Shown one piece after another: positions 1-64,000 of a stretch of 64,000 bases of DNA. A program made the position numbers and the translations under genes. Source of the DNA: Vogesella sp. XCS3 (GTDB taxonomy: Bacteria; Pseudomonadota; Gammaproteobacteria; Burkholderiales; Chromobacteriaceae). Position 1 is the first letter of the stretch. Each line of letters starts with the position of its first letter. The notes beneath the pieces are model-generated. The model saw nothing but the letters and a program-made list of their open reading frames with translations, was not told the DNA's origin and searched no databases. Location of the stretch: the NCBI RefSeq assembly GCF_020616155.1, contig NZ_CP085530.1, forward strand, positions 139,501 to 203,500. Reading direction: 5' to 3'.

Positions 1-762
1 TGGGCGGCCACGTTGGCCGCAGGCAGCGTGCTGCTGCTGGCTTTTGTCATTCCGATGTTGCAGCTGCTGTACTGGGCTTCGCTGGATTTTGCCAACCAGT
101 TCAGCAGCGATTTTCTGGGCTACGCCTGGCGCTCGGTCAGCCTGTCGCTGATCGCGGCTGTGCTGGTAACGGCTATCGCGCTGGTGCTGGCCTACCTGGT
201 GCGCCGTCAGGGCAGCCGGGCCATGCGCAACCTGGCGCGGGTGGCCACCATGGGCTACGCCATCCCCGGTACCGTGCTGGCAGTGGGGGTGTTTGTGCCG
301 GTGGCGTGGCTGGATAACCAGATCATTGCCGCTATGGGCTGGCAGGGCGAAGTGACGGCGGTGCTGAAAGGTACGCTACTGGCCATGCTGCTGGCTTTTG
401 TCGCGCGCTTTCTGGCGGTGGCGTACTCGTCGGTAGACACCGCCATGAACCGCATTACCCGCAGCCACGACGAGGCCGCGCGCAATCTGGGCTATTCGGG
501 CTGGGCGCTGCTGCGCAGGGTCTATCTGCCGCTGTTGTCTGGCGGCCTGTTTACTGGCGTACTGATGGTGTTTGTCGATGTGATGAAAGAGATGCCCATC
601 ACCCTGATGACCCGGCCCTTCGGCTGGGACACCTTGTCGGTACGTGTTTACAACATGACAGCCGAGGGCATGTGGGACCAGGCAGCGCTGCCGGCCATCG
701 CCATCGTGCTGGTGGGGCTGATTCCCACCATCCTGCTGTCGCGCCAACGGGATGTTGCCTGA
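1..762 (+). CDS. ABC transporter permease, FbpB-type (partial, C-terminal part)
   Basis: The reading frame is open from base 1, so the gene begins before the window. The visible 250 or so residues hold several hydrophobic segments and an inner-membrane permease loop of the EAA type (around EAARNLGYSGWALLRRVYLP), which docks on the ATPase. Spacing and sequence resemble the second half of the two-domain Fe(III) or thiamine/polyamine permeases (FbpB, ThiP). Its stop overlaps the start of the ATPase gene as ATGA, so the two are translationally coupled. The Fe(III) substrate is inferred from family resemblance; the binding protein lies outside the window. Confidence 0.85.
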   Translation, partial: WAATLAAGSVLLLAFVIPMLQLLYWASLDFANQFSSDFLGYAWRSVSLSLIAAVLVTAIALVLAYLVRRQGSRAMRNLARVATMGYAIPGTVLAVGVFVPVAWLDNQIIAAMGWQGEVTAVLKGTLLAMLLAFVARFLAVAYSSVDTAMNRITRSHDEAARNLGYSGWALLRRVYLPLLSGGLFTGVLMVFVDVMKEMPITLMTRPFGWDTLSVRVYNMTAEGMWDQAALPAIAIVLVGLIPTILLSRQRDVA

Positions 763-1814
763 TGAGTGCATTGCTAGAGTTACAGTCGGTGTCGCAACGC
801 TACGGTGACAAGGCCGTGGTCAATGACATGAGCTTTACCCTGCAGCAGGGCGAGATCGCCTGCCTGCTGGGTAGCTCCGGTTGTGGCAAGACCACGGTGC
901 TGCGCTGTATTGCCGGTTTCGAGCCTTTGGCCGGTGGCGAGATCCAGCTGGCGGGCCGCCGTATTGCCAGTGTGGCCAGCAGCGTGCCGGCGCATTTGCG
1001 CCAGATTGGCATGGTGTTTCAGGATTACGCGCTGTTTCCGCACCTGAATGTGCAGGAAAACGTGGGCTTTGGCCTGGGCAAGCTGAGCCGCAGCGAGCGC
1101 GAGGCCCGCGTGATGGCGGTGCTGGAGGTAGTAGGGTTGGCCGCGTACGCACAGGCCTTCCCGCACGAGCTGTCCGGTGGCCAGCAGCAGCGTGTGGCGC
1201 TGGCGCGGGCGCTGGCCCCCAAGCCCCAGCTGCTACTGCTGGACGAGCCGTTTTCCAATCTGGATGTCGACCTGCGCGAACGCTTGTCGCGCGAAGTGCG
1301 CGAGATCCTGAAATCGCAGGGCACCACCGCCATTCTGGTCACGCACGACCAGCACGAAGCGTTTGCCATGGCCGATAAGGTGGGGGTGATGCACCAGGGC
1401 CAGCTGCAGCAGTGGGCGCCGCCGTACGAGCTGTACCACGAGCCGGCCAGCCGTTACGTGGCCGACTTTATTGGCCAGGGTGCCTTTGTGCCGGGCAAGG
1501 TAACCGGCCCGCGCTGCGTGACGCTGGAGCTGGGCGAGTACTGCAGCGCCGTGCCGCGCCAGTTTGCCGAAGGCGACGAGGTAGACGTACTGCTGCGCCC
1601 GGACGACGTGGTGCACGACGATGCCAGCCCGGTAACGGCCAAGGTACTGGGAAAGGTATTTCGCGGCTCGGAGTTTCTGTACACGCTGCAGCTGGCCTCC
1701 GGGCAGCAGGTGCTGGCGCAGGTGCCCAGCCATCACAACCACGCCATCGGCGAGCCTATCGGTATCCGCCTGGAGCTGGACCACCTGATCGCATTCCGGC
1801 GCGAAGCGGCCTGA
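762..1814 (+). CDS. fbpC: ABC transporter ATP-binding protein, FbpC-like (ferric iron type)
   Basis: 350 residues, the usual FbpC/PotA length. It shows Walker A GSSGCGKTT (residues 37-45), a Q-loop in MVFQDYALFPH, the signature LSGGQQQRVALARAL, Walker B LLLLDEPFSNLD and the switch His in THDQHEAF. The last ~110 residues form a TOBE-like regulatory domain. The start is the ATG inside the ATGA overlap with the permease; an upstream in-frame extension is only a shadow. It energises import through the preceding permease. Fe(III) is the likely cargo, but spermidine/putrescine, sulfate or thiamine systems look similar, so substrate is inference. Confidence 0.88.
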   Translation: MSALLELQSVSQRYGDKAVVNDMSFTLQQGEIACLLGSSGCGKTTVLRCIAGFEPLAGGEIQLAGRRIASVASSVPAHLRQIGMVFQDYALFPHLNVQENVGFGLGKLSRSEREARVMAVLEVVGLAAYAQAFPHELSGGQQQRVALARALAPKPQLLLLDEPFSNLDVDLRERLSREVREILKSQGTTAILVTHDQHEAFAMADKVGVMHQGQLQQWAPPYELYHEPASRYVADFIGQGAFVPGKVTGPRCVTLELGEYCSAVPRQFAEGDEVDVLLRPDDVVHDDASPVTAKVLGKVFRGSEFLYTLQLASGQQVLAQVPSHHNHAIGEPIGIRLELDHLIAFRREAA

Positions 1815-1821
1815 TGCACCG

Positions 1822-1856
1822 TGCGGCCAATCTTGTCGTGTGAAAGGTTGGCCGCA
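1822..1856. repeat. Inverted pair of the GTTGGCCGC word after fbpC
   Basis: Core GCGGCCAA at 1823-1830 faces GTTGGCCGC at 1847-1855, with TGCGGCCAA/TTGGCCGCA arms of nine bases and a 17-base loop. It lies eight bases after the fbpC stop, just ahead of the true intrinsic terminator. It belongs to the window-wide repeat family described in the findings. Confidence 0.7.
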
Positions 1857-1866
1857 GCATAAATAA

Positions 1867-1922: not shown

Positions 1923-2783
1923 TCAGCCCGATAGCCAGCTGTTAGGGTGTGCCTCCAGCCAGGTCTTGATGGACTTGGCGTCGTTCACGCGCGCCGCCGA
2001 GCCGTTGGCCGCCAGCAGCACCACGATCAGGCGCTGGCTGCCCATGGTGGTTTCCATCACCAGGCAGCGGCCGGCTTCTTCGATGTAGCCGGTTTTGGAC
2101 AGGCCGATATCCCACTCGCCTTCACGTACCAGCGGGTTGCTGTTTTTGTAATGCAGTACACGGGTGGCGCTGGGGTGGGCCATGTATTCGTGGGTGGTAG
2201 AAAACTGGCGGATCAGCGGGTACTGGTAGGCCGCTTTTACCATGCGTACCAGGTCCATGGCGGTGGCGCTATTGCGCATGTCCAGGCCGGTAGCGTCGTG
2301 GAACACCGCATTGCGCATGCCGATGCTGCGTGCCTTCTGGTTCATTCTGGCAATGAAAGCCGCCTTGCCACCGGGGTAGGTGCGTGCCAGCGAGGCCGAG
2401 GCGCGGTTTTCCGACGACATCAGCGCCAGCAGCAGCATTTCGCGGCGGGTGAGGGTGGAGCCTACACTCAGGCGCGAGCTGGTGTTTTTCAGGCGGTCGA
2501 CTTCGTCCTCGGTGATGGTGATGGGCTCATCCAGCGACAGGCCGGCATCCAGCAGCACCATGGCGGTCATCAGCTTGGTGATGGATGCAATCGGCTGGGT
2601 TTGCAGCGGGTTTTTTTCGTAAACCAGCTTGCCGGTTTGTGCGTCTACTACCGCTACCGACTGGGAATTCAGCCGCGGGCTACTGGTTAGTGCCTGTGTT
2701 TGCAGGTTTACAGGCTGGGCGGCATAGGCCACCATGCTGCTGGCTGCCAGGCAGCCCAGCAGGGCAAAAGTTCTGAGCATCAT
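1923..2783 (-). CDS. pbpG: D-alanyl-D-alanine endopeptidase (PBP7, penicillin-binding)
   Basis: 286 residues with an N-terminal signal peptide (cleavage probably after AYA, about residue 21). The three active-site motifs of the S11 peptidase/beta-lactamase fold are present: SITK (67-70, nucleophile Ser67), SEN (124-126) and KTG (230-232). The PBP7/8 family cuts DD-crosslinks of peptidoglycan in the periplasm; there is no C-terminal amphipathic anchor as in PBP5/6, which supports PbpG over DacA. It is a single gene divergent from uvrB. Confidence 0.9.
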   Translation of the reverse strand: MMLRTFALLGCLAASSMVAYAAQPVNLQTQALTSSPRLNSQSVAVVDAQTGKLVYEKNPLQTQPIASITKLMTAMVLLDAGLSLDEPITITEDEVDRLKNTSSRLSVGSTLTRREMLLLALMSSENRASASLARTYPGGKAAFIARMNQKARSIGMRNAVFHDATGLDMRNSATAMDLVRMVKAAYQYPLIRQFSTTHEYMAHPSATRVLHYKNSNPLVREGEWDIGLSKTGYIEEAGRCLVMETTMGSQRLIVVLLAANGSAARVNDAKSIKTWLEAHPNSWLSG

Positions 2784-3021: not shown

Positions 3022-5037
3022 ATGGTAGTCAGCTATCCAGGTAGTGCGTTCAAGCTCCATCAGCCCTTTGCCCCTGCGGGCGATCAGCCAGCGGCCATTG
3101 CCAGCCTGGTAGAAGGCCTGTCCGACGGGCTGAGCTACCAGACCTTGCTGGGGGTGACGGGGTCGGGCAAGACCTACACCATGGCCAATGTGATTGCGCA
3201 AACCGGGCGGCCGGCCATCATCATGGCGCACAACAAGACGCTGGCGGCGCAGCTGTACAGCGAGATGCGCGAGTTTTTCCCCGAAAATGCGGTGGAATAC
3301 TTCGTGTCCTACTACGACTACTACCAGCCCGAAGCCTACGTGCCCAGCCGTGACTTGTTTATCGAAAAAGATTCCAGCATCAACGAGCACATCGAGCAGA
3401 TGCGTTTGTCGGCGACCAAGAGCATTCTGGAGCGGCCGGATTGCGTGATCGTGGCCACCGTATCGGCTATTTACGGTATCGGTGACCCGTCCGACTACCA
3501 TCAGATGATCCTGCACCTGAAAGAAGGCGAAACCACGCCGCAGAAGGATATCGTTAGCCGCCTGGTGGCCATGCAGTACGACCGTAACGATACCGACTTT
3601 GCGCGTGGCACCTTCCGCGTGCGCGGCGACGTGATTGACGTGTTCCCGGCGGAAAGCAACGACACCGCCGTGCGTATCAGCCTGTTTGACGACGAAGTGG
3701 AAACGCTCACGCTGTTCGACCCGCTGACCGGCACCACCAAACAACGGGTTGGCCGCTTTACCGTGTTTCCGTCCAGCCACTACGTGACACCACGCGACAC
3801 CGTGCTGCGCGCCTGCGAGAAGATCAAGCTGGAGCTGGCCGACCGTGTGGCCTGGTACCTGAAAGAAGGCAAGCTGGTGGAGGCGCAGCGCATCGAGCAG
3901 CGCACGCGCTTTGACCTGGAAATGCTGTACGAAATGGGCTTCTGCAAGGGCATCGAAAACTACTCGCGCCACTTTTCCGGCCGCGAGCCCGGTGGTGCGC
4001 CACCGACGCTGATCGACTACCTGCCCAAGAACGCGCTGATGTTTATCGACGAAAGCCACGTGACCGTGCCGCAAGTGGGCGCCATGTACAAGGGCGACGC
4101 GGCGCGCAAGCAAAACCTGGTGGATTACGGCTTCCGCCTGCCGTCGGCGGTGGACAACCGCCCGCTGAAGTTTCACGAGTTCGAGCAGCTGATGCCGCAA
4201 ACCATTTTTGTTTCGGCCACGCCGGCCGATTACGAAAAAGAGCACGCCGGCCAGGTGGTCGAGCAGGTGGTGCGGCCAACCGGCCTGGTTGACCCGGTGA
4301 TTGAAATCCGCCCGGTAGCTACGCAAGTGGACGACCTGCTATCGGAAATCCACTTGCGCATCGAGCGCGGCGAGCGCGTGCTGGTGACCACGCTCACCAA
4401 GCGCATGGCCGAGCAGTTGGCCGACTACTACACCGAGCACGGCATCAAGGTGCGCTACCTGCATAGCGATATCGATACGGTAGAGCGGGTGGAGATCATC
4501 CGCGACTTGCGCTTGGGCATGTTCGACGTACTGATCGGCATCAACCTGCTGCGCGAAGGCCTGGATATCCCGGAAGTCAGCCTGGTGGCCATTCTGGATG
4601 CCGATAAAGAGGGCTTTCTGCGTAGCGAGCGCAGCCTCATCCAGACCATAGGCCGCGCCGCGCGTAACCTGCACGGTAAAGCACTGCTGTACGCCGACCG
4701 TATTACCAACAGCATGCAGCGCGCCATGGATGAAACCGAGCGTCGCCGTAACAAACAGATGGCCTTTAATGCCGAGCACGGCATCGTGCCGCAAGGGGTA
4801 AACAAGAAGATCAAGGACATCATTGACGGTGTGTACCAGAACGAGCCTACCGACAGGAAGGCGCTGGCCGAAAGTGCCCGCATCGCCATGCTGGATGAAA
4901 AGGCCCTGGCCAAAGAAATCAAGCGCCTGGAAAAAGACATGATGGAAGCGGCGCGCAATCTGGAGTTTGAAAAGGCGGCCAAGCTGCGCGACGAACTGAA
5001 GGCCTTCAAAGAAAAGGCATGGATGAATGGCTTGTAA
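3022..5037 (+). CDS. uvrB: UvrABC excision nuclease subunit B
   Basis: 671 residues, full length. Walker A GVTGSGKT is at residues 44-51; the beta-hairpin tip that inserts at the lesion is recognisable in the [12 protein letters not shown] stretch; helicase motifs follow, ending with a coiled UVR domain in the last ~40 residues that binds UvrC. It takes over damaged DNA from UvrA in nucleotide-excision repair. The 238-base gap upstream is shared with divergent pbpG; I could not pin a LexA box or promoter there. Confidence 0.97.
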
Positions 5038-5582: not shown

Positions 5583-6275
5583 ATGGCCCTCGATAAAAAA
5601 ACAGCCGCTACCAAACCAATAGAAGTGGCCCCCAGCCATAGTGCCGACATGATTTTGCCGCGCCAGCCGGGTAAGCTCTCGCTGGGTAGGCAAACCGTCA
5701 TCGTGATTGGTTCGTCTACTGGTGGTACCGAGGCGCTGCGGGTGCTGCTGACTGCTTTGCCGGCCAACATGCCGCCGATTGTCATTACTCAGCACATGCC
5801 GGAAATGTTCACCAAGTCGTTTGCCGTGCGGCTGGATGCCCTGTGCAAGCTGACAGTAAAAGAAGCCGAAGACGGCGAGCGCCTGCAGCCGGGCCATGTG
5901 TATATCGCCCCAGGGCACTCCCATTTGCTGGTCAAGCCGGCCAGTACCATAGGCTACGCCACCAGCCTGCACCACGGCGTGCCGGTGAATCGCCACAAGC
6001 CGTCGGTGGATGTGCTGTTCCGCTCTGCGGCCAACGTCATCGGCAAAAACTGTATTGGCGTGATTCTTACCGGTATGGGGCGTGATGGTGCGGCAGGCAT
6101 GGCCGAGCTGAAAGAAGCTGGCGCGCACAATATCGCGCAGGATGAAGCTTCTTGCGTGGTGTTCGGCATGCCCAAGGAGGCCATTGCCTGTGGTGGTGTG
6201 CACGAAATTCTGCCCCTGTCGGCGATTGCTGGCCGTCTGGTGGCGCTGTGCGCGGGGCGTACGCACGCTGACTAA
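5583..6275 (+). CDS. CheB-type protein-glutamate methylesterase lacking a receiver domain
   Basis: 230 residues that correspond only to the catalytic half of CheB. The triad is intact: Ser45 in IGSSTGG, His71 in TQHMP and Asp168 in GMGRDGA, with spacing matching the E. coli enzyme. Only ~36 residues precede the domain, so the phospho-receiver that normally restrains CheB is absent. It would remove methyl groups from, or deamidate, chemoreceptors. It lies 21 bases ahead of the FleR-like regulator and heads the flagellar block; no cheR or receptor gene is adjacent. Either it is constitutively active or it is controlled by a separate partner (inference). Confidence 0.87.
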
Positions 6276-6296: not shown

Positions 6297-7634
<1,338 letters not shown>

Positions 7635-9789: not shown

Positions 9790-10780
9790 TGCCGGTATTC
9801 GTCGCAGCTCGGTGCTGCTGTTCAGTCTGGGTCAGGCTGAGGCTATCGAGGTATTCAAGTACCTGGGGCCGAAAGAAGTGCAAAAGCTCAGCCTGGCCAT
9901 GGCCGGCTTGAGCAACCTTAGCCACGATGAAGTGGAAAAGGTCGTCGGCCAGTTCCGCGAAGAATGTGCAGCACGTGCGAACTTTGGCGCTACCGACGAG
10001 TACCTGCGCAATGTGCTGGTAGAGGCACTGGGCCCGGATAAAGCGGCCAACCTGCTGGACAAGATTTTGCAGGGCAACGATCACAGCGGTATCGAAAGCC
10101 TGAAGTGGATGGACCCATCCTCTGCGGCAGACCTGATCCGCAACGAGCACCCGCAGATTATTGCCACCATCATGGTGCACCTGGACCCCGACCTGTCCAG
10201 TGCCATTCTGGCCTATTTCCCGGAGCGCATGCGTAACGAGGTGCTGATTCGTACTGCTACCCTGGAGGGCGTACAGCCACAGGCGCTGCGCGAACTGAAC
10301 GATGTGCTGACCCAATTGCTGTCCGGCTCCGACCGTGTCAAGAAGAGCGCTGCCGGTGGCGTGGGCATGACGGCCGAGATCCTGAACTTTTTGGGTTCCA
10401 ACGTGGAAGCCTCTGCGCTATCGTATATCCGCGAGTATGACCCCGAGCTGGCGCAGCGCATCCAGGACAAGATGTTTGTATTCGACAACATCCTGGAAAT
10501 CGACGATCGTTCCATCCAGACCATCCTGCGCGAAGTGCAGTCCGACTCTCTGGTGGTGGCGCTCAAAGGTACCAGCCAGGAGCTCAAGGACAAAATCTTC
10601 CGCAATATGTCGTCGCGTGCTGCCGAGATGCTGCGCGACGATCTGGAGTCCAAAGGCCCGGTCAAGTTGTCCGAAGTGGAAGCCGAGCAGAAAGAGATTC
10701 TCAAAATTGTGCGCAAGCTAGCCGACGAAGGCCAGATTGTGATTGCAAGCAAAGGTGGAGACGAAGGCCTTGTCGAGTAA
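9782..10780 (+). CDS. fliG: Flagellar motor switch protein FliG
   Basis: 332 residues with the three armadillo-like domains. The middle-domain EHPQ motif (NEHPQIIATIMVHL) that binds FliM is present, and the C-terminal torque helix around MFVFDNILEIDDRSIQ holds the charged residues that meet MotA. It begins inside the end of fliF, and fliH begins inside its own end, so the set is translationally coupled. Confidence 0.96.
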   Translation: MSDAGIRRSSVLLFSLGQAEAIEVFKYLGPKEVQKLSLAMAGLSNLSHDEVEKVVGQFREECAARANFGATDEYLRNVLVEALGPDKAANLLDKILQGNDHSGIESLKWMDPSSAADLIRNEHPQIIATIMVHLDPDLSSAILAYFPERMRNEVLIRTATLEGVQPQALRELNDVLTQLLSGSDRVKKSAAGGVGMTAEILNFLGSNVEASALSYIREYDPELAQRIQDKMFVFDNILEIDDRSIQTILREVQSDSLVVALKGTSQELKDKIFRNMSSRAAEMLRDDLESKGPVKLSEVEAEQKEILKIVRKLADEGQIVIASKGGDEGLVE

Positions 10781-11537
10781 CAACATCATCCCGGCGGAGT
10801 CGCTGGGTCAGTGGCAGTCCTGGCGTTTCGGCGAGATCGGGGCGCAGCCCGCCCCGCAGCCGGAAGCCATTATTGCCGCGAATGAAGCCCCCGCAGAGGG
10901 GGTTTCTGCTTTGGAGATGCCGGCAGAAGAGGTCGTGGAAGCCGCAGAGACGGTGCAAGAAGAGGCCTTGCCTGCTCCGGCCTACCCGACAGCCGCCGAG
11001 TTGGAGGCTATCCACCAGGAGGCCTGGCAGGCCGGGTTTGAAGCAGGCAAAGAAGAAGGCATGCAGCAAGGCCAGGCCGAAGGTGCACAGCAGGCTTTGG
11101 CGGATGCTGCCCAGCAGTTCGAGAGCTACTGGGCACCGCTGGCCCAGCTGCAGCAAGCCATGGAAACCCAGCTGCAGCAGCTGGGCGTAGCCTTGTCTGC
11201 CGAGGTGCTGCAGTTGGCCGTTGGTTTTGCCGAGCAGATTGTTGCCAGCAAGATTGCGCTGGATCGCAATGCCGTGCTGCCTGTGCTGCAGGCGGCGCTG
11301 GATGAGTTGGGGCAGGGCCTGCTGCAGGCACGTGTGCGAGCGCATCCGGAAGACCTGGCCGTGATACAGGCTTTTGCACAAGAGCGTTTTGCCGGGGTGA
11401 GTTGGCAGTGGGTGGCAGATGAGGCGGTAGAGCGCGGTGGCTGCGTGGTGGATACCGGCAGCGTCAAGCTGGACCTGACGCTGCCGCCAAGGTTGGCCGC
11501 ATTGCGTCAGGCATTGGGGTTGCCCGCGCATGATTGA
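10770..11537 (+). CDS. fliH: Flagellar export ATPase regulator FliH
   Basis: About 255 residues. The start is not an ATG: TTG at 10770 gives MSSNNIIP and has a GGAG site nine bases upstream; GTG at 10755 and TTG at 10743 are alternatives. The protein has an acidic, Ala/Glu-rich N-terminal half, a Gln-rich helix with GxxxG-type repeats ([15 protein letters not shown]), and a V-type ATPase subunit E-like C-terminal domain. FliH dimers hold FliI at the export gate. It overlaps fliG and fliI. Confidence 0.88.
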
Positions 11538-12924
11538 CTTGCTGCAAAGCCAGCGTAGCTACCTGGCGGCGTGCCAGCAGACCATCGCCAATACGCCGGC
11601 CTGGTTGCCAGAGGGGCAGCTTACCCGCGTTACCGGCCTGGTGATGGAGGCGGTTGGCCTGCGTTTGCCGGTGGGCAGTGCGTGTGAAGTACACATTGCC
11701 CAGGGCCACATGGTAGAAGCCGAGGTAGTCGGTTTTGCCGGTGACAAGCTGTTTTTGATGCCGGTGGCCAATATTCAGGGTTTGTTGCCGGGTACGCCGG
11801 TGCGACCATCGCGCAGCATCCAGCCTCCAGCCTACGGGCAGCAGCAGGTAAGGGCCGAGGTGAATGGTCCGCTGGGTCGCCAGGTGCCGGTGGGTTTGAG
11901 TCTGCTGGGGCGTGTGCTGGACTCGCTGGGCCGCCCGCTGGATGGCAAAGGGCAGATTTTTCCCGAGGCTTACTTCCCCTTGTACAGCCAGCCGTTGAAT
12001 CCCTTGCAACGTACGCCGGTGCGCCACGTGTTGGACGTTGGTGTGAAGGCCATCAACGGCCTGCTGACGGTTGGCCGCGGCCAACGTCTGGGCCTGTTTG
12101 CCGGCTCGGGTGTGGGTAAGTCGGTGCTGCTGGGCATGATGGCCCGTTATACCCGTGCCGATGTCGTGGTGGTGGGCTTGATCGGCGAGCGGGGGCGCGA
12201 GGTGAAGGACTTCATCGAGCACATCCTGGGTGAAGAGGGTTTGGCGCGTTCGGTCGTGGTGGCGGCGCCGGCCGACATGCCGCCGCTGATGCGCTTGCAC
12301 GGTGCCGCCTACGCTACGGCGCTGGCCGAGTACTACCGTGCACAGGGGCTGGATGTGCTGTTGTTGATGGATTCGGTTACCCGTTACGCCATGGCGCAGC
12401 GTGAAATTGCGCTGGCCATTGGCGAGCCGCCGGTCAGCAAAGGCTACCCGCCGTCGGTATTCGCCAAGCTGCCACAGCTGATCGAGCGTGCCGGTAATGG
12501 CGAAGCAGGGGGCGGCTCCATTACGGCCTTCTATACCGTGCTGTCCGAGGGTGACGACCAGCAAGACCCGATTGCAGACTCCGCACGTGCCATTCTGGAT
12601 GGCCACTTTGTGCTATCGCGCGAGCTGGCCGAATCCGGCCACTATCCGGCTATCGATATCGAGCAATCCATCTCGCGCGTGATGGTGGATGTGGTGCCGC
12701 GCGAGCATATGGACAGCGCCCGCCGCTTCAAGCAGCTGTTCTCCCGCTACCAGCGCAGCCGTGACCTGATTAGCGTGGGCGCCTATGTGCCCGGCTCGGA
12801 CCCGATGCTGGATGAAGCCATACGCTTGCATACCCGGCTCACCGGCTTTCTGACCCAGGCGCAGCACGAAAACGTGGATGCCGGCATGACCACGCTGTTG
12901 CTGAACGACGTGCTGGCTGGCTAA
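11530..12924 (+). CDS. fliI: Flagellum-specific ATPase FliI
   Basis: 464 residues, F1-beta-like ATPase. Walker A GSGVGKS at residues 192-198, Walker [13 protein letters not shown], and the Rossmann core are intact. It powers unfolding and delivery of export substrates. Starts within fliH by 8 bases. The Walker region is encoded next to a perfect palindrome TTGGCCGCGGCCAA (12071-12084) formed by two overlapping copies of the repeat word. Confidence 0.96.
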
Positions 12925-20835: not shown

Positions 20836-20875
20836 GGTTGGCCGCAGGCAGCGTGCTGCCGCGTAGCGGCCAACC
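20836..20875. repeat. Inverted GTTGGCCGC pair between convergent genes (terminator-like)
   Basis: GGTTGGCCGC (20836-20845) and GCGGCCAACC (20866-20875) are perfect 10-base arms; inside them GGCAG-CGTG-CTGCC makes a second stem, so the whole 40 bases fold as one long hairpin. It is the only structure between the stop of the binding protein (20826) and the end of convergent glutaminase (20880), so it probably ends transcription both ways. Confidence 0.75.
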
Positions 20876-21869: not shown

Positions 21870-21883
21870 GGTTGGCCGCAGGC
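21870..21883 (+). repeat. Solo GTTGGCCGCAGGC repeat, intergenic
   Basis: Copy at 21871 in the 113-base gap between glsA and the HD-domain gene. Extended version GTTGGCCGCAGGC shared with several other copies. Confidence 0.7.
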
Positions 21884-33394: not shown

Positions 33395-35356
<1,962 letters not shown>

Positions 35357-46659: not shown

Positions 46660-46670
46660 TGCGGCCAACC
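46660..46670 (-). repeat. Solo GTTGGCCGCA repeat (minus orientation)
   Basis: TGCGGCCAACC core five bases after the synthetase stop, running into the terminator hairpin. Confidence 0.65.
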
Positions 46671-48631: not shown

Positions 48632-48640
48632 GTTGGCCGC
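48632..48640 (+). repeat. Solo GTTGGCCGC repeat upstream of infA
   Basis: Copy in the 280-base gap between infA and the flavin-reductase gene. The rest of the gap holds only a GC hairpin near 48450-48466 in the infA leader. Confidence 0.6.
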
Positions 48641-49400: not shown

Positions 49401-50558
49401 ATGAGTGACCCCCTGACGATTGTACAAGCCAATATCACTGTCTGCTGGGTAGCAGCCAGTGGTTGGGCCGTGGCCGGCATGGTGCTGAAAATGGCACCTA
49501 CCGTGGCGCGCCGCTTTTTCCTGTGCGATTTTCTGATGGGCCTTAGCCTGCTATTGACGCTGCAGCGTGACGGCATGGCACCGGTGTGGCTGGTTTACCC
49601 GTTTGCCGATGTATTGGGGCTGCTGGCGCTGTGTAGCCTGCGTTTGGGCATCCGCTATTTTGTGCGGCGCGATGGTAGCGGTGTGGCAGAAAGCCTGGGC
49701 GTGGTTTTGCTGGGCGGGGCTTTGTTACTTAGCCAGCCGTACGGGCGCATGCCGGGTTTTCATGCGGTGGTGTATTCCTTGACTGCGGCGTGGCTGTTGT
49801 TGCGCGCCACGCAGGATGCCCTGTCGCATGAGGAACAGCACTTTACCCCAGGCGCGCGGGCGCTGGTGGTCAGCCCGCTGGCGGCGGTGGGGGGCTTGTT
49901 TGTACTACGCGCACTGATGGTGTTGGGGGGCAATGTGGCCACCGCGTCTGTCGCGTCAACCGAGCCTTTCAACGTGGTGTTCCTGCTGGTGGGCCTGGTG
50001 CTGAATCTGGCTGTAAACATTGCCATGGCCGGCGTGGTGACCATGCGCCTGGTGGGCAAGCTGGAACACTTGTCGATGACCGACCCGATGACCGGGGCGC
50101 TGAACCGCCGTGCTTTCAGTATCAGCCTGAAGCAGCAACACAGCATGGCGCAGCGTGGCATGCCTTATGCGCTCTGTGTGCTGGATGTAGACCACTTCAA
50201 GCAGATTAACGACCGGCTGGGCCACGCTGCCGGTGACGCTGCCATTGTGCACCTGGTGACGGTATTGCGCAGCGTGTTGCGCGAGCAGGACCTGCTTTGC
50301 CGCGCAGGCGGCGAGGAGTTTTGCATACTGCTGCCGGATACCACTGAACACGGTGCAACCGCGGTGGCCAACCGGCTGCGCATCGCGCTGGAGCAAACGC
50401 CTTTTGTGTGGGCAGAGACACGTTGGCCGCTTACTGCCAGCTTTGGTCTGGCGGTGTTTACACCGGGCAGCGACGACCCGGAAACGCTGCTACAGCGTGC
50501 CGACCGTGCTGTTTATCACGCCAAGGAGCGTGGCCGGAACCAGGTGGTATTACTGTAG
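49401..50558 (+). CDS. Membrane diguanylate cyclase (GGEEF)
   Basis: 385 residues: about six membrane helices (residues 8-220) then a GGDEF domain with GGEEF at 303-307 and an intact inhibitory site REQD (294-297). Active-site metal Asp in VLDVDHFKQIND. Makes cyclic di-GMP; together with the cyclase at 24081 and the PilZ protein at 53685 it shows an active second-messenger network. Confidence 0.93.
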   Translation: MSDPLTIVQANITVCWVAASGWAVAGMVLKMAPTVARRFFLCDFLMGLSLLLTLQRDGMAPVWLVYPFADVLGLLALCSLRLGIRYFVRRDGSGVAESLGVVLLGGALLLSQPYGRMPGFHAVVYSLTAAWLLLRATQDALSHEEQHFTPGARALVVSPLAAVGGLFVLRALMVLGGNVATASVASTEPFNVVFLLVGLVLNLAVNIAMAGVVTMRLVGKLEHLSMTDPMTGALNRRAFSISLKQQHSMAQRGMPYALCVLDVDHFKQINDRLGHAAGDAAIVHLVTVLRSVLREQDLLCRAGGEEFCILLPDTTEHGATAVANRLRIALEQTPFVWAETRWPLTASFGLAVFTPGSDDPETLLQRADRAVYHAKERGRNQVVLL

Positions 50559-52457: not shown

Positions 52458-52466
52458 GTTGGCCGC
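52458..52466 (+). repeat. Solo GTTGGCCGC repeat, intergenic
   Basis: Copy in the divergent gap upstream of the acyl-CoA dehydrogenase gene. Confidence 0.6.
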
Positions 52467-53169: not shown

Positions 53170-53698
53170 CGAACAGGTTTTTGAAGGGCGTTTCCTGAAG
53201 GTGCGGCGCGACACGGTAAGCCTGCCGGACGGCAAGCAAGCGTATCGCGAGTTTATCCGCCACCCGGGCGCCGTGGCCGTGCTGGCACTGAGTGACAATA
53301 ACGAGCTGGTGCTGGAGCGCCAGTTCCGCTACCCGGCAGGGCAGGATTTCGTCGAGATTCCGGCCGGTAAAATTGACCCGCAGGAAGACCCGGCCGACAC
53401 CGCCAAACGCGAGCTGTGGGAAGAAACCGGTTTTATCGCAACGCAATGGCGTTATCTTGGCAAAGCCTACCCGTGTATCGGTTATGCTGACGAGGTGATT
53501 CATTACTATCTGGCCACCGGTTTGACGCAAACCCCGCGCCAGCTGGACGAAGGCGAGTTTCTGGAGGTGATGTTGCTGCCCGCCAAAGAAGCGCAAGCCA
53601 TGTCGCTGGATGGCCGCATTACCGATAGCAAAACCCTGGTCGGCCTGCACTGGTTGGCCGCGTGGCAACAAGGAACCCTGTCAGGTGAAGCCATTTGA
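53141..53698 (+). CDS. nudF: Nudix hydrolase, ADP-ribose pyrophosphatase type
   Basis: 185 residues from GTG 53141 (longer frame to 53075 lies inside DUF2062). Nudix box GKIDPQEDPADTAKREL and EETGF is complete and the PAGQDFVEIPAGKID lead-in is typical of ADPRase. Hydrolyses ADP-ribose to AMP and ribose 5-phosphate. Overlaps both neighbours, suggesting one operon with DUF2062 and PilZ. Confidence 0.88.
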   Translation: MDLTEKQLDSEQVFEGRFLKVRRDTVSLPDGKQAYREFIRHPGAVAVLALSDNNELVLERQFRYPAGQDFVEIPAGKIDPQEDPADTAKRELWEETGFIATQWRYLGKAYPCIGYADEVIHYYLATGLTQTPRQLDEGEFLEVMLLPAKEAQAMSLDGRITDSKTLVGLHWLAAWQQGTLSGEAI

Positions 53699-54347: not shown

Positions 54348-56276
54348 ATGAGCCCGGACATCTTCAGCCACTACGCATCCCGCTACGATCGCACCCGCGA
54401 AGAAGAATTCACCATCCAGGAGTACCTGGATATCTGCAAGCGCGAGCCCCTGGCCTACGCCAGTGCGGCGGAACGCATGCTGATGGCCATCGGCGAGCCG
54501 GAGGTCATCGACACCCGCCACGATACCCGCCTGTCGCGCATCTTCAGTAACAAGATGATCCGCGTCTACCCGGCCTTCCGCGAGTTTTACGGGATGGAAG
54601 AGGTTATCGAGCAAGTAGTGGCCTACTTCCGCCACGCCGCCCAGGGCCTGGAAGAGAAAAAACAGATTCTCTACCTGCTGGGCCCGGTGGGTGGCGGCAA
54701 ATCGTCCATTGCCGAAAAGCTCAAGGAGCTCACCGAACGCGTGCCGTTCTACGCCATCAAGGGCAGCCCGGTGAACGAGTCACCGCTGGGTCTGTTCAAC
54801 TTTGAGGAAGACGGCCCTATTCTGGAAGACCAATACGGCATTCCGCGCCGCTACCTGCGCGCCATCCCCAGCCCGTGGGCGGTAAAACGGCTGCACGAGT
54901 TTAATGGCGACATCAGCCAGTTCCGGGTGGTGAAACGTTACCCGTCGGTGCTGAAGCAAGTGGGCGTGGCCAAGACCGAGCCGGGCGACGAAAACAACCA
55001 GGACATCTCCAGCCTGGTGGGCAAGGTGGACATCCGCAAACTGGAAAGCTACGCCCAGGACGACCCGGACGCCTACAGCTACAGCGGTGGCCTGTGCCTG
55101 GCCAACCAGGGCCTGCTGGAATTCGTGGAAATGTTCAAGGCGCCGATCAAGGTGCTGCACCCGCTGCTGACCGCCACCCAGGAAGGCAACTTCAAGGGTA
55201 CCGAAGGTTTTGGCGCCATTCCGTTTGACGGCATCGTGCTGGCGCACAGCAACGAGAGCGAATGGAAGCAGTTCCGCAACAACAAGAACAACGAGGCCTT
55301 CCTCGACCGTATTTATATCGTGAAGGTGCCGTACTGCCTGCGCGTGTCGGACGAGATCAAGATCTACGACAAGCTGGTGCGCAACTCTTCGCTGGGTGGT
55401 GCGCCGTGCGCACCGGGCACGCTGAAGATGATGGCGCAGTTTGCCGTGCTGTCGCGGCTGAAAGACCCGGAAAACTCCAGCCTGTACAGCAAGATGCTGG
55501 TGTACGACGGTGACAACCTGAAAGACACCGACCCGAAGGCCAAGTCGCACCAGGAATACCGCGACTTTGCCGGCGTGGACGAGGGCATGAACGGCCTGTC
55601 TACCCGCTTTGCCTACAAGATCCTGTCCAAGGTGTTCAACTTCGACCACACCGAGGTCGCGGCCAACCCGGTACACCTGATGTACGTGCTGGAGCAGCAA
55701 GTAGAGCGCGAGCAGTTTCCGGCAGAGCAGGAGCAGAAATACCTGACCTTCCTGAAAGAGTATCTGGCGCCCAAGTACGTGGAGTTCATCGGCAAGGAAA
55801 TCCAGACCGCCTACCTGGAAAGCTATAGCGAATACGGCCAGAACATTTTTGACCGCTACGTGACCTTTGCCGACTTCTGGATCCAGGATCAGGAATACCG
55901 CGACCCGGACACCGGCGAGAACTTCGACCGTACCTCGCTGAACGCCGAACTGGAGAAAATCGAAAAGCCGGCAGGCATCTCCAATCCGAAAGACTTCCGC
56001 AACGAGATCGTGAACTTTGTGCTGCGTGCCCGCGCCAACAATGCCGGCAATAACCCGGCCTGGACCAGCTACGAGAAGCTGCGCACCGTGATCGAGAAAA
56101 AAATGTTCTCGAACACCGAAGAGTTGCTGCCGGTGATCAGCTTTAATGCCAAAGCCAGCGCCGACGAGGCCAAAAAGCACGAAGACTTTGTCAACCGCAT
56201 GGTCACCAAGGGTTACACGCCCAAGCAGGTACGCCTGCTGTGCGAATGGTATCTGCGGGTGCGCAAGTCATCCTGA
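54348..56276 (+). CDS. prkA: PrkA-family serine protein kinase (YeaG)
   Basis: 642 residues. AAA+ N-terminal domain with Walker A GPVGGGKS (112-119), then the PrkA C-terminal kinase-like domain. In enterobacteria YeaG works with YeaH and YcgB in stationary phase and nitrogen stress. Here the same trio lies in order on one strand. Own AT-rich upstream region. Confidence 0.95.
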   Translation: MSPDIFSHYASRYDRTREEEFTIQEYLDICKREPLAYASAAERMLMAIGEPEVIDTRHDTRLSRIFSNKMIRVYPAFREFYGMEEVIEQVVAYFRHAAQGLEEKKQILYLLGPVGGGKSSIAEKLKELTERVPFYAIKGSPVNESPLGLFNFEEDGPILEDQYGIPRRYLRAIPSPWAVKRLHEFNGDISQFRVVKRYPSVLKQVGVAKTEPGDENNQDISSLVGKVDIRKLESYAQDDPDAYSYSGGLCLANQGLLEFVEMFKAPIKVLHPLLTATQEGNFKGTEGFGAIPFDGIVLAHSNESEWKQFRNNKNNEAFLDRIYIVKVPYCLRVSDEIKIYDKLVRNSSLGGAPCAPGTLKMMAQFAVLSRLKDPENSSLYSKMLVYDGDNLKDTDPKAKSHQEYRDFAGVDEGMNGLSTRFAYKILSKVFNFDHTEVAANPVHLMYVLEQQVEREQFPAEQEQKYLTFLKEYLAPKYVEFIGKEIQTAYLESYSEYGQNIFDRYVTFADFWIQDQEYRDPDTGENFDRTSLNAELEKIEKPAGISNPKDFRNEIVNFVLRARANNAGNNPAWTSYEKLRTVIEKKMFSNTEELLPVISFNAKASADEAKKHEDFVNRMVTKGYTPKQVRLLCEWYLRVRKSS

Positions 56277-56290: not shown

Positions 56291-56320
56291 CAGGTTGGCC
56301 GCAGCGTTGCGGCCAACCTG
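56291..56320. repeat. Perfect inverted GTTGGCCGCA pair between prkA and the DUF444 gene
   Basis: CAGGTTGGCCGCA (13), loop GCGT, TGCGGCCAACCTG (13), starting 14 bases after the prkA stop. A very stable 13-bp stem without T-tract; could attenuate or stabilise the operon mRNA. Confidence 0.85.
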
Positions 56321-57622: not shown

Positions 57623-57636
57623 GGTTGGCCGCAGGC
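57623..57636 (+). repeat. Solo GTTGGCCGCAGGC repeat between DUF444 and spoVR
   Basis: Begins at the base after the DUF444 stop codon in a 36-base gap that otherwise holds the AGGAGG site of spoVR. Confidence 0.7.
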
Positions 57637-59185: not shown

Positions 59186-59196
59186 GGTTGGCCGCA
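59186..59196 (+). repeat. Solo GTTGGCCGCA repeat after spoVR
   Basis: GGTTGGCCGCA 15 bases after the spoVR stop, ahead of the terminator. Confidence 0.65.
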
Positions 59197-59212
59197 CAGC
59201 CTGGGTTAACGC

Positions 59213-59306: not shown

Positions 59307-62300
59307 ATGACCACGCATACCGAAGCCACCCACACCCCGCCGCAAGCCGTGGTGACTGTCCGCCGCGACTATAACCGCTGGGTGGCCAGCGAAACGCTGG
59401 AAGACTACGCGCTGCGTTTTACCCCGCAGCGCTTCCGGCGCTGGTCGGCATGGCGGGTGGCCAATACCGCGGTGGGCGGCGCCGCGTCGTTTCTGGTGCT
59501 GGAGGCGGTGGGCGCCACCATGATGGTGGAGGCGGGTTTCCTGAATGCCTTCCTGGCTATTCTGGCTACCGGCCTGATTATCTTTCTGGCCGGCCTGCCC
59601 ATCAGCCTGTACGCCGCCCGCTATGGCGTGGATATGGACTTGCTTACCCGTGGTGCCGGCTTCGGCTATATCGGCTCCACCATTACCTCGCTGATTTACG
59701 CCTCGTTCACCTTTATCTTTTTTGCGCTGGAAGCGGCCATCATGGCCTATGCACTAGAGCTGGGCTTTGGCATCCCGCCGCAGTGGGGCTACCTGCTATG
59801 TGCGCTGGTGGTGCTGCCACTGGTCACGCATGGGGTCACTGCCATCAGCCGCTTGCAGGTATGGACGCAGCCACTGTGGCTGTGTTTGCTGGTGTTGCCC
59901 TATGTTTTCGTGTTGTGGCACGAGCCGCAGGCGCTGGCCGGCTTGTGGCGCTACGCCGGTGCAAGCCATGCACCGCAGGCGTTTGACCTGCATCTGTTTG
60001 GTGCGGCGCTGACGGTGGGCATCGCACTGATTACCCAGATGGGCGAGCAGGCCGACTACTTGCGCTTCATGCCGCCACGCACCGCGGCCAACCGTCGGCA
60101 GTGGCTGCTGGCGGTGATGGTGGGCGGGCCGGGCTGGGTGTTGCCTGGCGTACTGAAAATGCTGGGCGGCGCGCTGCTGGCCTGGCTGGCGCTGCGCAAC
60201 GGCGTGGCGGCCGAGCGTGCGGTGGACCCGAACCAGATGTACCTCATCGGCTTTGCCCACGTCTTTGATAACACCACGCTGGCCGTAGCCGCCACCACGC
60301 TGTTCGTGCTGGTGTCGCAGCTGAAAATCAACGTTACCAATGCCTACGCCGGTTCGCTGGCGTGGTCCAATTTCTTTTCGCGCCTGACCCACAGCCACCC
60401 CGGCCGCGTGGTGTGGGTGGTGTTCAACCTGGCCATTGCCCTGCTGCTGATGGAGCTGGAAGTGTTCCACGCCCTGGGTCAGGTGCTGGGGCTGTATTCC
60501 AATATCGCCATCTCGTGGATCATGGCCGTGGTGGCAGACTTGGTCGTGAGCAAGCCGCTGGGCTTGAGCCCCAAGGGTATCGAGTTCAAGCGCAGCTATC
60601 TGTACGACATCAACCCGGTGGGTGTGGGGGCCATGGCTTTGGCATCTTTGCTGTCCATTGCCACCCATGTCGGCGTGTTTGGCGAGCACTGGCAGCCGCT
60701 GGCGCCCTTTGTGGCCATGAGCGTGGCATTTGTTAGTGCCCCGCTGATTGCCTGGCTCACCGGCGGGCGCTACTACAGCGCGCGACCAACCTTGGTCGCC
60801 AGCGCCAGCCAGTACCGCTGCGTGGTATGCGAGCGCGATTACGAAGCGGAAGACATGGCACCGTGCCCGGCCTACCAGGGCATGATCTGCTCGCTGTGCT
60901 GCACGCTGGACGTACGCTGTGGCGATGCCTGCAAGCCGCAGGCGAGGTTGGCCGCACAGTGGTCGGCGCTATTGCATTACCTGTTGCCGCGGGCCTTGCA
61001 GCCGTATCTGGCGCACGGGCTGGGGCATTACCTGCTGCTGATGACCAGCATAGGCAGCGTGCTGCTGCTGATACTGGGCTTGCTGTACTACATCGAATGG
61101 CAGGGCGCGCTGCAAGGCGGCTATGCAGCCTGGCTGCCGCAGCTGTTCTGGCGGCTGTTTGCCGTACTGTTGCTGGTGAGCGGCGTGGTGGCGTGGTGGA
61201 TGGTACTCACCGCCAAAAGCCGCGAGGTGGCGCAGCTGGAATCCAACCGCCAGACCGCGCGCCTATTGGCCGAAATCGAGTCGCACCGGCTTACCGACGA
61301 GCAACTCAAGCGCGCGCGCGAGGCGGCCGAGCAAGCCAACCAGGCCAAGAGCCGCTACGTGTCTGCCATCAGCCACGAGCTGCGCACCCCGCTGAACAGC
61401 ATTCTGGGCTATGCGCAGATTCTGGATGGCGACGCCGAGATCCCGCCGTCGCGCCGCCAGGCCATCGAGGTGATACGCCGCAGCGGTGACCACCTGCTGT
61501 CGGTGATCGAAGGCAGTATGGATATTGCCCGTATCGAAAGCGGCAAGCTGCAGCTGGCAACCCGCGCCATGGATTTCGACGCGTTTCTCAGCCAGCTGGT
61601 GGCCATGTTCGAGCTGCAAGCGCGTAACAAGGGGCTGGATTTTCATTACGAACCCGCCGCCCACCTGCCGCAGGTGGTGCGCGCCGACGAAAAGCGCCTG
61701 CGCCAGATATTGATCAACCTGCTGGGTAATGCGGTGAAGTTTACCCGCCGTGGCAGTGTGCGCTTTGCCCTGCAATACCGTGGCGAAATGGCCACTTTCG
61801 AGGTGATGGACACCGGGCCGGGGATTGCCGAGGGGGAACTGCTGCGCATTTTCGAGCCGTTCGAGCGCGGCAGTAGCAGCGGCGCCGGCGGCAACGGCCT
61901 GGGGCTCACCATCAGCAAGATGCTCACCGACCTGATGGGCGGCGAGCTCACCGTACGCAGCACGCCGGGGCAGGGCAGCCATTTCACCGTGCGCCTGTTT
62001 TTGCCGCACGTGCACGCGGCGCTGGCCGAGCGCGAGCTGCCGCGGCGCAACCGGGTGGGTTATGTGGGCGTGCGCCAGCGCATCCTGCTGGTGGACAACG
62101 AAGCCATCGACCGTGAAATGCTGGCCAGCGTGCTGGAGGGGCTGGGCTTTGAGGTGGCACAGGCGGCCAGCGGCTACGACTGCCTGGCCATGGTTGGCCG
62201 CTTCCAGCCGCATCTGGTGTTCATGGACCTGGCCATGCCGGGCATAGACGGCTGGGAAACGCTGCGCCGCCTGCGCCAGAGCGGCAGCACCGCGCAGTTG

Positions 62301-62705
62301 GCCGTGATTTCTGCCAATGCTTTTGATAAGGGGCAGGACAACGATGCCGGTATTGCCAGCGAAGATTTCATCCTCAAACCGATACGGGTAGAAGAACTTC
62401 TGGACTGGATAGGGCACAAGCTGGGGCTGGCGTGGGTCATTGGGCAGCCCGCCGCCGCGCCGCCGTCGCCGCTACCCGCCGTACACGAGCTGGTGTTGCC
62501 CCCGGCCGCCGAGCTGGCCGGCCTGCTGGAAGCGGTGGAGCTGGGCTATGTGCGCGGCCTGCGTAGCGAGCTGGCCAGGTTGGCCGCACTGGATACCGCG
62601 TATGCCGAGTTTGCCCGCGTGGCTGGCGAGCATGTGCGCCAGTTCCAGTTTGAAGCCCTGCGCGAGCTGCTGCACCACGGTTTACAGCCGGAGAATAAAG
62701 CATGA
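59307..62705 (+). CDS. Hybrid histidine kinase with NCS1 transporter-like sensor and cysteine cluster
   Basis: 1132 residues. Residues ~45-500 resemble NCS1 purine/cytosine permeases (about twelve helices; RGAGFGYIGSTITSLIYASF). Residues 505-542 hold eight Cys (505, 508, 520, 528, 531, 532, 538, 542), probably zinc-binding. Two further helices and a coiled coil lead to the kinase: His690 in SHELRTP, N-box NLLGNAVKF, DTGPGI and GGNGLGLTISK. A receiver follows with Asp974 in FMDLAMPG, then a helical tail. ATGA overlap with the regulator gene. Comparable in idea to CbrA-type kinases, which use an SSS transporter. The ligand is unknown, possibly a purine or related solute. Confidence 0.87.
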   Translation: MTTHTEATHTPPQAVVTVRRDYNRWVASETLEDYALRFTPQRFRRWSAWRVANTAVGGAASFLVLEAVGATMMVEAGFLNAFLAILATGLIIFLAGLPISLYAARYGVDMDLLTRGAGFGYIGSTITSLIYASFTFIFFALEAAIMAYALELGFGIPPQWGYLLCALVVLPLVTHGVTAISRLQVWTQPLWLCLLVLPYVFVLWHEPQALAGLWRYAGASHAPQAFDLHLFGAALTVGIALITQMGEQADYLRFMPPRTAANRRQWLLAVMVGGPGWVLPGVLKMLGGALLAWLALRNGVAAERAVDPNQMYLIGFAHVFDNTTLAVAATTLFVLVSQLKINVTNAYAGSLAWSNFFSRLTHSHPGRVVWVVFNLAIALLLMELEVFHALGQVLGLYSNIAISWIMAVVADLVVSKPLGLSPKGIEFKRSYLYDINPVGVGAMALASLLSIATHVGVFGEHWQPLAPFVAMSVAFVSAPLIAWLTGGRYYSARPTLVASASQYRCVVCERDYEAEDMAPCPAYQGMICSLCCTLDVRCGDACKPQARLAAQWSALLHYLLPRALQPYLAHGLGHYLLLMTSIGSVLLLILGLLYYIEWQGALQGGYAAWLPQLFWRLFAVLLLVSGVVAWWMVLTAKSREVAQLESNRQTARLLAEIESHRLTDEQLKRAREAAEQANQAKSRYVSAISHELRTPLNSILGYAQILDGDAEIPPSRRQAIEVIRRSGDHLLSVIEGSMDIARIESGKLQLATRAMDFDAFLSQLVAMFELQARNKGLDFHYEPAAHLPQVVRADEKRLRQILINLLGNAVKFTRRGSVRFALQYRGEMATFEVMDTGPGIAEGELLRIFEPFERGSSSGAGGNGLGLTISKMLTDLMGGELTVRSTPGQGSHFTVRLFLPHVHAALAERELPRRNRVGYVGVRQRILLVDNEAIDREMLASVLEGLGFEVAQAASGYDCLAMVGRFQPHLVFMDLAMPGIDGWETLRRLRQSGSTAQLAVISANAFDKGQDNDAGIASEDFILKPIRVEELLDWIGHKLGLAWVIGQPAAAPPSPLPAVHELVLPPAAELAGLLEAVELGYVRGLRSELARLAALDTAYAEFARVAGEHVRQFQFEALRELLHHGLQPENKA

Positions 62706-63625
62706 TTACCCCACACCAGCAGCACGTGGTGCTGATCGTAGACGACCAGCCGGACAACCTTACCCTGCTGCACGACGCCCTGGACGACGCTGGCTACACC
62801 GTATTGGTGGCTACCGATGGCGAAGCTGCCTTGCAGCGTGCGCGGCTGTCCTTGCCCGATGTCATCCTGCTGGATGCGGTCATGCCGGGGCTGGATGGCT
62901 TCGAGGTGGCACGCCGCCTGAAAGCCGCGTTTGCCACCCGTGCCATCCCCATCGTGTTCATGACGGGCCTGACCGAAAGCGAGCACGTGGTCGCCGCCTT
63001 TGCCGCAGGCGGCGCCGACTATGTCACCAAGCCGCTGCGCCCGCCCGAGGTGCTGGTGCGCATCGCCGCCCATATCCAGAACGCACGCCAGATGACGCAG
63101 GCCAGCAGCGCACTGGATGCCTTTGGCCAGGCCACGGTGGCCATCGCCGCGCGCAGTGGCAGGCTGGTGTGGCAAACCGCGCTGGCCCGGCGTCTGATCG
63201 AGCATTATTTTGGCGCGGGCGACCAGGCCCCGCCGGCTTTGCTGGCCTGGACCCAGGCGGCGCAGGCCGCCAGGCTGGCCGGCACCGAGCAACCGGCCCT
63301 GTTGCTGGCACAGCAAGGGCGGCGACTGCTGGCCAGTTTTCACGACCAGACGGGCGACGAAGAGTGGCTGGTGGTGCTGCGCGAAGAAAACGATGAAGCC
63401 AGCATCAAGACGCTGATGGGGGCCTTCCGCCTGACCCAGCGCGAGGCCGAGGTGTTGCACTGGCTGAGCCTGGGCAAGACCAATCGCGATATCGCCGACA
63501 TTCTGGGCATGAGCCCGCGCACGGTGAACAAGCACCTGGAGCACGTATTCGACAAGCTGGCTGTCGAAACGCGCACCGCGGCGGCCAGCCTGGCACTAGG
63601 CAAGCTGCGCGGCAGTACGGCGTAG
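62702..63625 (+). CDS. LuxR-type response regulator, partner of the hybrid kinase
   Basis: 307 residues: receiver with Asp58 (LLDAVMPG), a middle linker domain of ~100 residues of unknown fold, and a GerE-type helix-turn-helix (LTQREAEVLHWLSLGKTNRDIADILGMSPRTVNKHLEHVF). Start overlaps the kinase stop. Confidence 0.9.
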   Translation: MITPHQQHVVLIVDDQPDNLTLLHDALDDAGYTVLVATDGEAALQRARLSLPDVILLDAVMPGLDGFEVARRLKAAFATRAIPIVFMTGLTESEHVVAAFAAGGADYVTKPLRPPEVLVRIAAHIQNARQMTQASSALDAFGQATVAIAARSGRLVWQTALARRLIEHYFGAGDQAPPALLAWTQAAQAARLAGTEQPALLLAQQGRRLLASFHDQTGDEEWLVVLREENDEASIKTLMGAFRLTQREAEVLHWLSLGKTNRDIADILGMSPRTVNKHLEHVFDKLAVETRTAAASLALGKLRGSTA

Positions 63626-63744
63626 TGCGGGGTAGCTAGGGCCTGTTTACGCTATTTTTGATACGGCGGCGCTTGTCAGTCGGTGGCAATGCGCGAAAAA
63701 CCGGGCGCAGCAGGGCGATCCCTGCCTGCATGGTTTGACAAAGC
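63626..63744. other. Gap between response regulator and LysR gene
   Basis: 119 bases between convergent genes with no clear terminator or other signal. Confidence 0.5.
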
Positions 63745-64000
63745 CTAGTCCAGCGCCAGGCGGCTGGCCAGAAAATCGCGCAGCGCCACGGCCAGGGGGG
63801 TAGGCGTGTCGTTGGCCGCCAGGGCGACCAGGGTGAGCGACGGGCATTCCCAGTAGGGTAGTACGGCAACCAGCCGGCCACTACGTACCGCTTCCTGCGT
63901 CAGCTGTTTGGGCAGCATGGCGATACCCACGCCTTGCTCCGCCAGTGTACGCATCAGGCCCAGATCATTCAGGCCAACTCGCCCGCCAAGCAAGGGCTGT
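63745..64000 (-). CDS. LysR-family regulator (partial, C-terminal part)
   Basis: The frame is open to the window edge, so only the last ~84 residues are visible. GVGIAMLPKQLTQEAVRSGRLVAVLPYWE is the second lobe of a LysR effector domain. Target unknown. Confidence 0.8.
   Translation of the reverse strand, partial: QPLLGGRVGLNDLGLMRTLAEQGVGIAMLPKQLTQEAVRSGRLVAVLPYWECPSLTLVALAANDTPTPLAVALRDFLASRLALD

Follow-up and report, generated by a model that had tools for sequence, protein, structure and literature searches.

The 64-kb window (the whole stretch of DNA analysed here, G000:C1:139501-203500) is part of a 3.89 Mb Vogesella genome in two contigs, and carries many copies of the 9-mer GTTGGCCGC, a candidate DNA uptake sequence (DUS). 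The guanine-plus-cytosine (GC) content of the window was 61.2%. An exact recount returned 58 copies, 40 on the plus and 18 on the minus strand, the same figures as those of a sequence-only reading made earlier. A mean of 2.24 and a largest count of 6 were obtained from 100 dinucleotide shuffles, and the order-4 Markov expectation was 4.2. The 9-mer was followed by A, giving the 10-mer GTTGGCCGCA, in 33 of the 58 copies, again as first counted. A crude gene caller, which left 13% of the window non-coding, placed 15/58 copies between genes; about 14 had been estimated before, and the intergenic excess was also found in a larger sample of contig C1.

All copies were exact matches and are given here by the coordinates of their nine bases. 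The full 12-mer, AG-GTTGGCCGCA, was present between genes at 1847..1855 (plus, AGGTTGGCCGCA), on the plus strand also at 11492..11500, 32786..32794, 34640..34648, 47351..47359, 51188..51196, 60947..60955 and 62579..62587, and on the minus strand at 29015..29023. An intergenic full 12-mer at 20837..20845 (plus) formed an inverted pair with an intergenic 9-mer at 20866..20874 (minus), and two others, at 56294..56302 (plus) and 56309..56317 (minus), were the arms of an intergenic hairpin (56294-56317) 3' of a PrkA-family gene.

Copies with A at position +10 were intergenic at 13706..13714, 21871..21879, 33376..33384, 57624..57632 and 59187..59195 (plus) and at 46661..46669 (minus), and one was within uvrB at 4272..4280 (minus). 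Those at 17358..17366 (minus) and 17399..17407 (plus) formed an inverted pair, while the one at 22266..22274 (minus) formed a direct pair with a 9-mer at 22296..22304 (minus). The others were at 23745..23753, 30773..30781, 38856..38864, 40179..40187, 43573..43581 and 46088..46096 (plus) and at 6027..6035, 26978..26986, 28219..28227 and 42663..42671 (minus).

The 9-mer alone was found on the plus strand at 1136..1144 (G at +10), 2004..2012, 3748..3756 (within uvrB), 7196..7204, 21137..21145, 25735..25743, 37394..37402, 45535..45543, 46304..46312, 50422..50430, 53653..53661, 62193..62201 and 63811..63819, with intergenic copies at 30102..30110, 48632..48640 and 52458..52466. On the minus strand it was at 10043..10051, 36760..36768, 40873..40881, 55659..55667 and 60084..60092. 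Of the starts listed by the sequence-only reading, 57/58 were exact, and the minus copy given as 55669 begins at 55659. An intergenic copy, ACGTTGGCCGCA, was at 12..20 (plus), and copies at 12070..12078 (plus) and 12077..12085 (minus) together made a 16-base palindrome.

Abundance and context of the word in the genome and genus

The word was not limited to the window, because the whole genome contained 2279 copies of GTTGGCCGCA (1173 forward, 1106 reverse) against 11 matches of its reversed control, an average of about one per 1.7 kb. The anatomy of the word was examined in 464 kb, made up of the window and 20 stretches of 20 kb (one from contig C2), which held 386 9-mers with full flanks. Information in the flanks was confined to about three 5' bases (A-2, 52%; G-1, 56%) and A+10 (70%), and almost none was found past about three bases. 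The same sample contained 272 copies of GTTGGCCGCA against 6.8 expected (order-4 Markov). Its one-mismatch neighbours were present in 0-14 copies each, some over and some under expectation, except for changes at +10 (33-44 each).

Gene context was taken from 444 kb of contig C1, in which a simple script had delimited the genes. Genic copies numbered 283 (0.77 per kb) and intergenic copies 101 (1.34 per kb), and every one of the six frame and strand combinations was used. Copies were on the G-rich and C-rich strand in a ratio of 213 to 171, to which the window contributed 40 to 18. Among pairs less than 60 bases apart, 26/28 were inverted, in agreement with the hairpin-type pairs reported earlier. 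In 175 open reading frames (ORFs) of at least 900 bases, 226 9-mers were observed against a mean of 25.8 (standard deviation 5.0) in 60 synonymous shuffles, and 161 10-mers against 6.6. The earlier view of a word on both strands, in different frames and not driven by codons was upheld by these counts.

Word density was uneven. Contig C2 (164 kb, GC 0.50-0.54; loci L239-L245 and L106) contained only 4 10-mers and 7 9-mers in 160 kb, and this lower-GC, almost word-free contig is probably a plasmid or a recent acquisition. One stretch of C1, L104 (G000:C1:3360001-3380000), had only 6 9-mers in its 20 kb, with 12-25 in each of the remaining 18 stretches of C1, and is perhaps a recent island.

The family survey covered 61 genomes, 13 of the window's genus (g1) and 48 of nine other genera (g2 to g10) in family f1, which we take from the genus to be Chromobacteriaceae. 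Genus g1 was assigned to Vogesella because the aroB-comP loci of two of its genomes were 100% identical to those of V. indigofera DSM 3303 and V. oryzae. Throughout Vogesella the word was abundant, with 1871-2895 copies of GTTGGCCGCA in 13/13 genomes (2057 in V. indigofera and 2273 in V. oryzae); each of the other 48 genomes had at most 58. Genomes of g2, g3, g4 and g8, at GC 0.61-0.68, held at most 42. In a class-wide sample of 369 genomes, more than 97 copies of GTTGGCCGMA were found only in the window's own genome.

Sister words and known uptake dialects

De novo counts of 10-mers in 40-60 kb from each other genus of the family showed that GTTGGCCGAA was the top 10-mer in g6, g7, g9 and g10 and GTTGGCCGAG in g5, while no comparable 10-mer was found in 40-60 kb of g3, g4, g8 and two word-less g2 genomes. 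These sister words, which differ between genera at +9 and +10, were abundant in five other genera and in one species of a sixth, and copies ranged from hundreds to thousands across Vogesella and some related genera. Whole-genome counts of GTTGGCCGAR were 1386 in G010, 2017 in G034, 1668 in G035, 744 in G036, 2223 in G037, 1258 in G038, 1872 in G045, 1152 in G046, 238 in G047 and 942 in G048. G010 is a member of g2, whose nine other genomes held 26-64 copies. In g8, 2/6 genomes had 154 (G040) and 130 (G043) copies; the other 36 non-Vogesella genomes had at most 93 and Vogesella at most 59. The low counts of G040, G043 and G047 (g10) resemble decaying word sets.

As a positive control, the same counting recovered known DUS words in 7/8 genomes of family f44 and none in G147, and f44 is taken as Neisseriaceae because known DUS words were recovered there. 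A degenerate word, GYHGBCYGMA, was counted order-wide in 399 genomes against its reversed control. Of 11 f44 genomes, 10 showed an excess of at least six-fold; in six Vogesella it was three- to four-fold, and no genome of another family was above about 2.5. This test is coarse, because the values for word-bearing G010 (2.6) and for word-less g2 genomes (2.2-2.3) lay close together.

The sequence-only reading had held the word to be unrelated to known DUS dialects, and this was not borne out. AG-GTTGGCCGCA shared 8/12 positions in register with AG-mucDUS and AG-simDUS, and AG-GTTGGCCGAA reached 9/12 in its best match (P 0.005-0.011 by register allowed; 0.007-0.015 of genomic 12-mers reach 9). 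Known dialects share 6-11 of 12 positions among themselves, and reverse complements shared 0-3 with the dialects. A-2, G-1, G+1, G+4, C+6, G+8 and A+10 were kept, with T+7 changed to C.

The word resembles the DUS of Neisseriaceae in its length of 10-12 bases, about 2000 copies, use of both strands, inverted pairs, intergenic excess, AG prefix and the bases G+1, G+4, C+6, G+8 and A+10, as well as in having sister words 1-2 positions apart and an accompanying ComP homologue. It is unlike them in its CCG core, in G at +5 and in a host outside Neisseriaceae. The uptake signal sequence of Pasteurellaceae is a high-copy self-DNA tag for transformation, with words that are not known to resemble that of Vogesella. 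Because its core differs, the word was not filed under the described CTG-core dialects; it most likely works like a DUS, and the most suitable name is a CCG-core uptake word with sister forms in part of the family.

A ComP-like pilin beside aroB

A gene for a ComP-related minor pilin adjoins aroB in Vogesella, and a GspH-like pilin gene lies next to it in 13/13 Vogesella genomes. The best solved-structure matches of the ComP-like pilin were ComP of Neisseria (PDB 5hz7, 2m3k and 2nba), and the first match of its structural model was ComP 5hz7. Prepilin N-terminus matches in the genome numbered 17 (15 over the cut-off), and among three PF16732-type pilins of these that were compared with PDB, only the ComP-like one matched ComP. 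Pfam PF16732 itself matched the ComP-like pilin over the cut-off (E 1.8e-7) but was rejected as proof or marker of ComP; it does not discriminate, because the PilE-type pilin L013 scored 1.1e-22, and the family search matched 61/61 genomes (60 over the cut-off). ComEC was present in the genome, and the same model matched 12/14 control genomes, over the cut-off in 5.

Like ComP, the Vogesella pilin has a W-P-x-L-P stretch, an aromatic-Lys in the alpha1-beta1 loop and a long beta1-beta2 loop. Two cysteines were present in 12/13 Vogesella rows and three in G059. Genome G224 of f44, presumed Neisseriaceae (L222, L321), carried king and sim words and a ComP-like pilin with two cysteines. The ComP-like pilin was 47-51% identical to that of G000 in 8/12 other Vogesella genomes, in which the word was unchanged, and the linked GspH-like pilin was 36-50% identical in those eight.

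Loops were compared over 136 columns between 22 word-bearing f1 rows (13 Vogesella and 9 others) and 25 word-less rows, leaving out G045, G040 (weak word) and 12 genomes with no ComP-like match; residues are numbered in the G000 row, starting two residues before Met. The four columns that separated the groups best were K65 (21/22 vs 0/25), T98 (20/22 vs 0/25), G101 (21/22 vs 3/25) and D99 (22/22 vs 5/25), all in the alpha1-beta1 and beta1-beta2 loops. In the accessible text of PMC4906244, ComP of N. subflava contacts DNA through its DD region, the beta1-beta2 loop and a small part of alpha1-beta1. The motif N[TAV]DxG was found in 21/22 word-bearing and 0/25 word-less rows; word-less G022 has NVD at the position of the shorter N[TAV]D. 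Within g2, the NTDxG loop was seen in the word-bearing G010, which lacks the Lys, and in none of eight word-less relatives. In f44, the alpha1-beta1 Lys was present in 8/8 extracted word-bearing rows (G257 and G398 left out) and absent in word-less G147, and the beta1-beta2 loop read G-x-x-D/E in 7/8 of those rows against N-T-D-x-G in Vogesella. These counts are not independent, because the rows are related by descent.

Interpretation, alternatives and significance

Taken together, the genome-wide enrichment, the presence of the word in 13/13 genomes of the genus, its sister words and the kinship of the pilin with ComP make it probable that AG-GTTGGCCGCA is a DUS read by a ComP-related pilin, in a form of the Neisseria system that has a CCG core. 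Binding of the word, its uptake and the ComP-like pilin as its reader are what we infer from these observations. In natural transformation, double-stranded DNA carrying the word would be bound at the cell surface by a minor type IV pilin and drawn through the PilQ secretin as the pilus retracts, after which ComEC would pass one strand inward for recombination. Same-genus DNA would be favoured, so that copies spread and persist as transformation recurs, and a replicon that arrived only recently, such as contig C2, would have no copies. The likeliest reader would be the ComP-related pilin encoded beside the GspH-like pilin and aroB.

Several observations weigh against this interpretation. The core at +6 to +8 is CCG and not the CTG of described dialects, and the form with T at +7, GTTGGCTGCA, had 5 copies in the 464 kb against 272 for the word. 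The similarity of AG-GTTGGCCGCA by itself to the dialects is weak (P 0.03-0.09 by register allowed). In the VIA-align table, two of the three ComP structures were below PilV, PilX and PilE. The two-disulfide DD region of ComP, with its four cysteines, is missing in the Vogesella pilin, and for this reason the pilin was not filed as a canonical ComP. The net charge of its soluble part was near neutral (-2 to +5 in Vogesella), and net charge was rejected as a receptor marker since it failed to separate word-bearing from word-less genera. The sequence-only reading had proposed a check for a ComP-like minor pilin with an electropositive groove; a ComP-like pilin was found by sequence and structure matches, and net charge, the measure used for an electropositive surface, does not track the word. 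The word was absent or weak in g3, g4, g8 and 9/10 g2 genomes, and the pilin alone does not predict it, because many word-less genomes keep ComP-like pilins. The association of loops and word is also confounded by shared ancestry.

It is unlikely, yet deserving of some weight, that the word is an uptake word read by another pilin, for example the linked GspH-like or a minor-cluster FimT/GspH-type pilin. The constant position of the GspH-like gene beside comP in the genus, the number of prepilin N-termini matched in the genome (17, of which 15 passed the cut-off) and the unremarkable net charge of the ComP-like pilin would fit such a reader. Against it, the ComP-like pilin was the sole match to ComP structures among the three PF16732-type pilins compared, and its loops covary with the word, in a comparison made on the ComP-like pilin only.

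A chromosome-organising or repair motif read inside the cell, in the manner of FtsK-orienting polar sequences (KOPS), Chi or nucleoid-protein sites, is improbable. KOPS and Chi are words that are likewise frequent genome-wide and are strongly oriented, and a mild G-rich strand excess was seen (213 to 171, with the window giving 40 to 18). An oriented chromosomal motif was nevertheless rejected as the leading explanation because strand use was even overall (1173 vs 1106); moreover, 26/28 close pairs were inverted, and the word varies at +9 and +10 among sister genera and accompanies the ComP-like loop signature.

It is very improbable that the word belongs to a dispersed repeat element or a terminator hairpin. 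The 26 inverted pairs less than 60 bases apart in the 444 kb would point that way, but they account for at most 52/384 copies, and flanks past about three bases were almost free of information. Codon or amino-acid preference has next to no probability as the source of the word: Leu-Ala-Ala (74) and Ala-Ala-Asn (126) were favoured among the 283 genic copies, but such an origin was refuted by synonymous shuffling (25.8 vs 226), the use of six frames, an intergenic density above the genic one and the scarcity of GTTGGCCGCA (at most 42) in g2, g3, g4 and g8 at GC 0.61-0.68.

With a DUS read by the ComP-related pilin as the preferred reading, its history can be considered. The chances are about equal for and against a DUS that was ancestral to Neisseriaceae and Chromobacteriaceae, split into CTG-core and CCG-core classes with a matching beta1-beta2 change (G-x-x-D/E vs N-T-D-x-G), and was lost repeatedly together with the loop signature. 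In a uvrB tree with midpoint root, made without G224 and G045, Vogesella and G010 grouped with word-less rows of g2 and g3 (support 91/96), and three outgroup rows fell inside the family. This placement of the outgroup, the use of one gene, the small number of deep branches with support and the midpoint root leave gain versus loss undecided in this tree.

According to the accessible text of PMC3630211 (Frye et al. 2013), every dialect conserves CTG, and N. meningitidis needs it. The same text gives C. violaceum, Pseudogulbenkiania and others as lacking an obvious DUS, and it dates the origin of the DUS to a time later than the divergence from C. violaceum, a species in which BLAST found no ComP. 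No description of the word, or of a DUS in Chromobacteriaceae including Vogesella, was found in the open-access literature searched (subscription papers and preprints were mostly outside it), or in the accessible parts of PMC3630211, PMC3868556, PMC12061091, PMC4906244, PMC10715097 and PMC11316581. As far as the accessible text of PMC11316581 goes, potential new dialects were sought as 12-mers with CTG at 6-8, and that search would miss CCG-core words. Table S1D of PMC3630211, on over-represented 10-mers in five genomes with no obvious DUS (including Pseudogulbenkiania and Lutiella), may already list one of the words described here.

If the reading is true, a CCG-core class in the sister family would move the origin of the DUS earlier than the date after the Chromobacterium split given in the accessible part of PMC3630211, and would break the supposed CTG invariance stated there. 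This suggests that self-recognition by an uptake word has a longer history and takes more forms than the literature describes. The CTG- and CCG-core classes with their loop changes would then form a natural word-receptor code, and about 20 natural word-receptor pairs (22 rows), together with word-less relatives, would be available for studies of DNA reading by pilins. Vogesella hosts would allow bench work without the need for pathogenic Neisseria.

ComP-profile matches were also obtained in family f41. In one of its genomes, G254 (GC 0.36), a stretch of 60 kb showed no uptake word. At least two ComP-profile matches were present per genome in G184, G221, G254 and G421, and one f41 match (2.1e-17) was stronger than the weakest match in f44 (4.2e-17).

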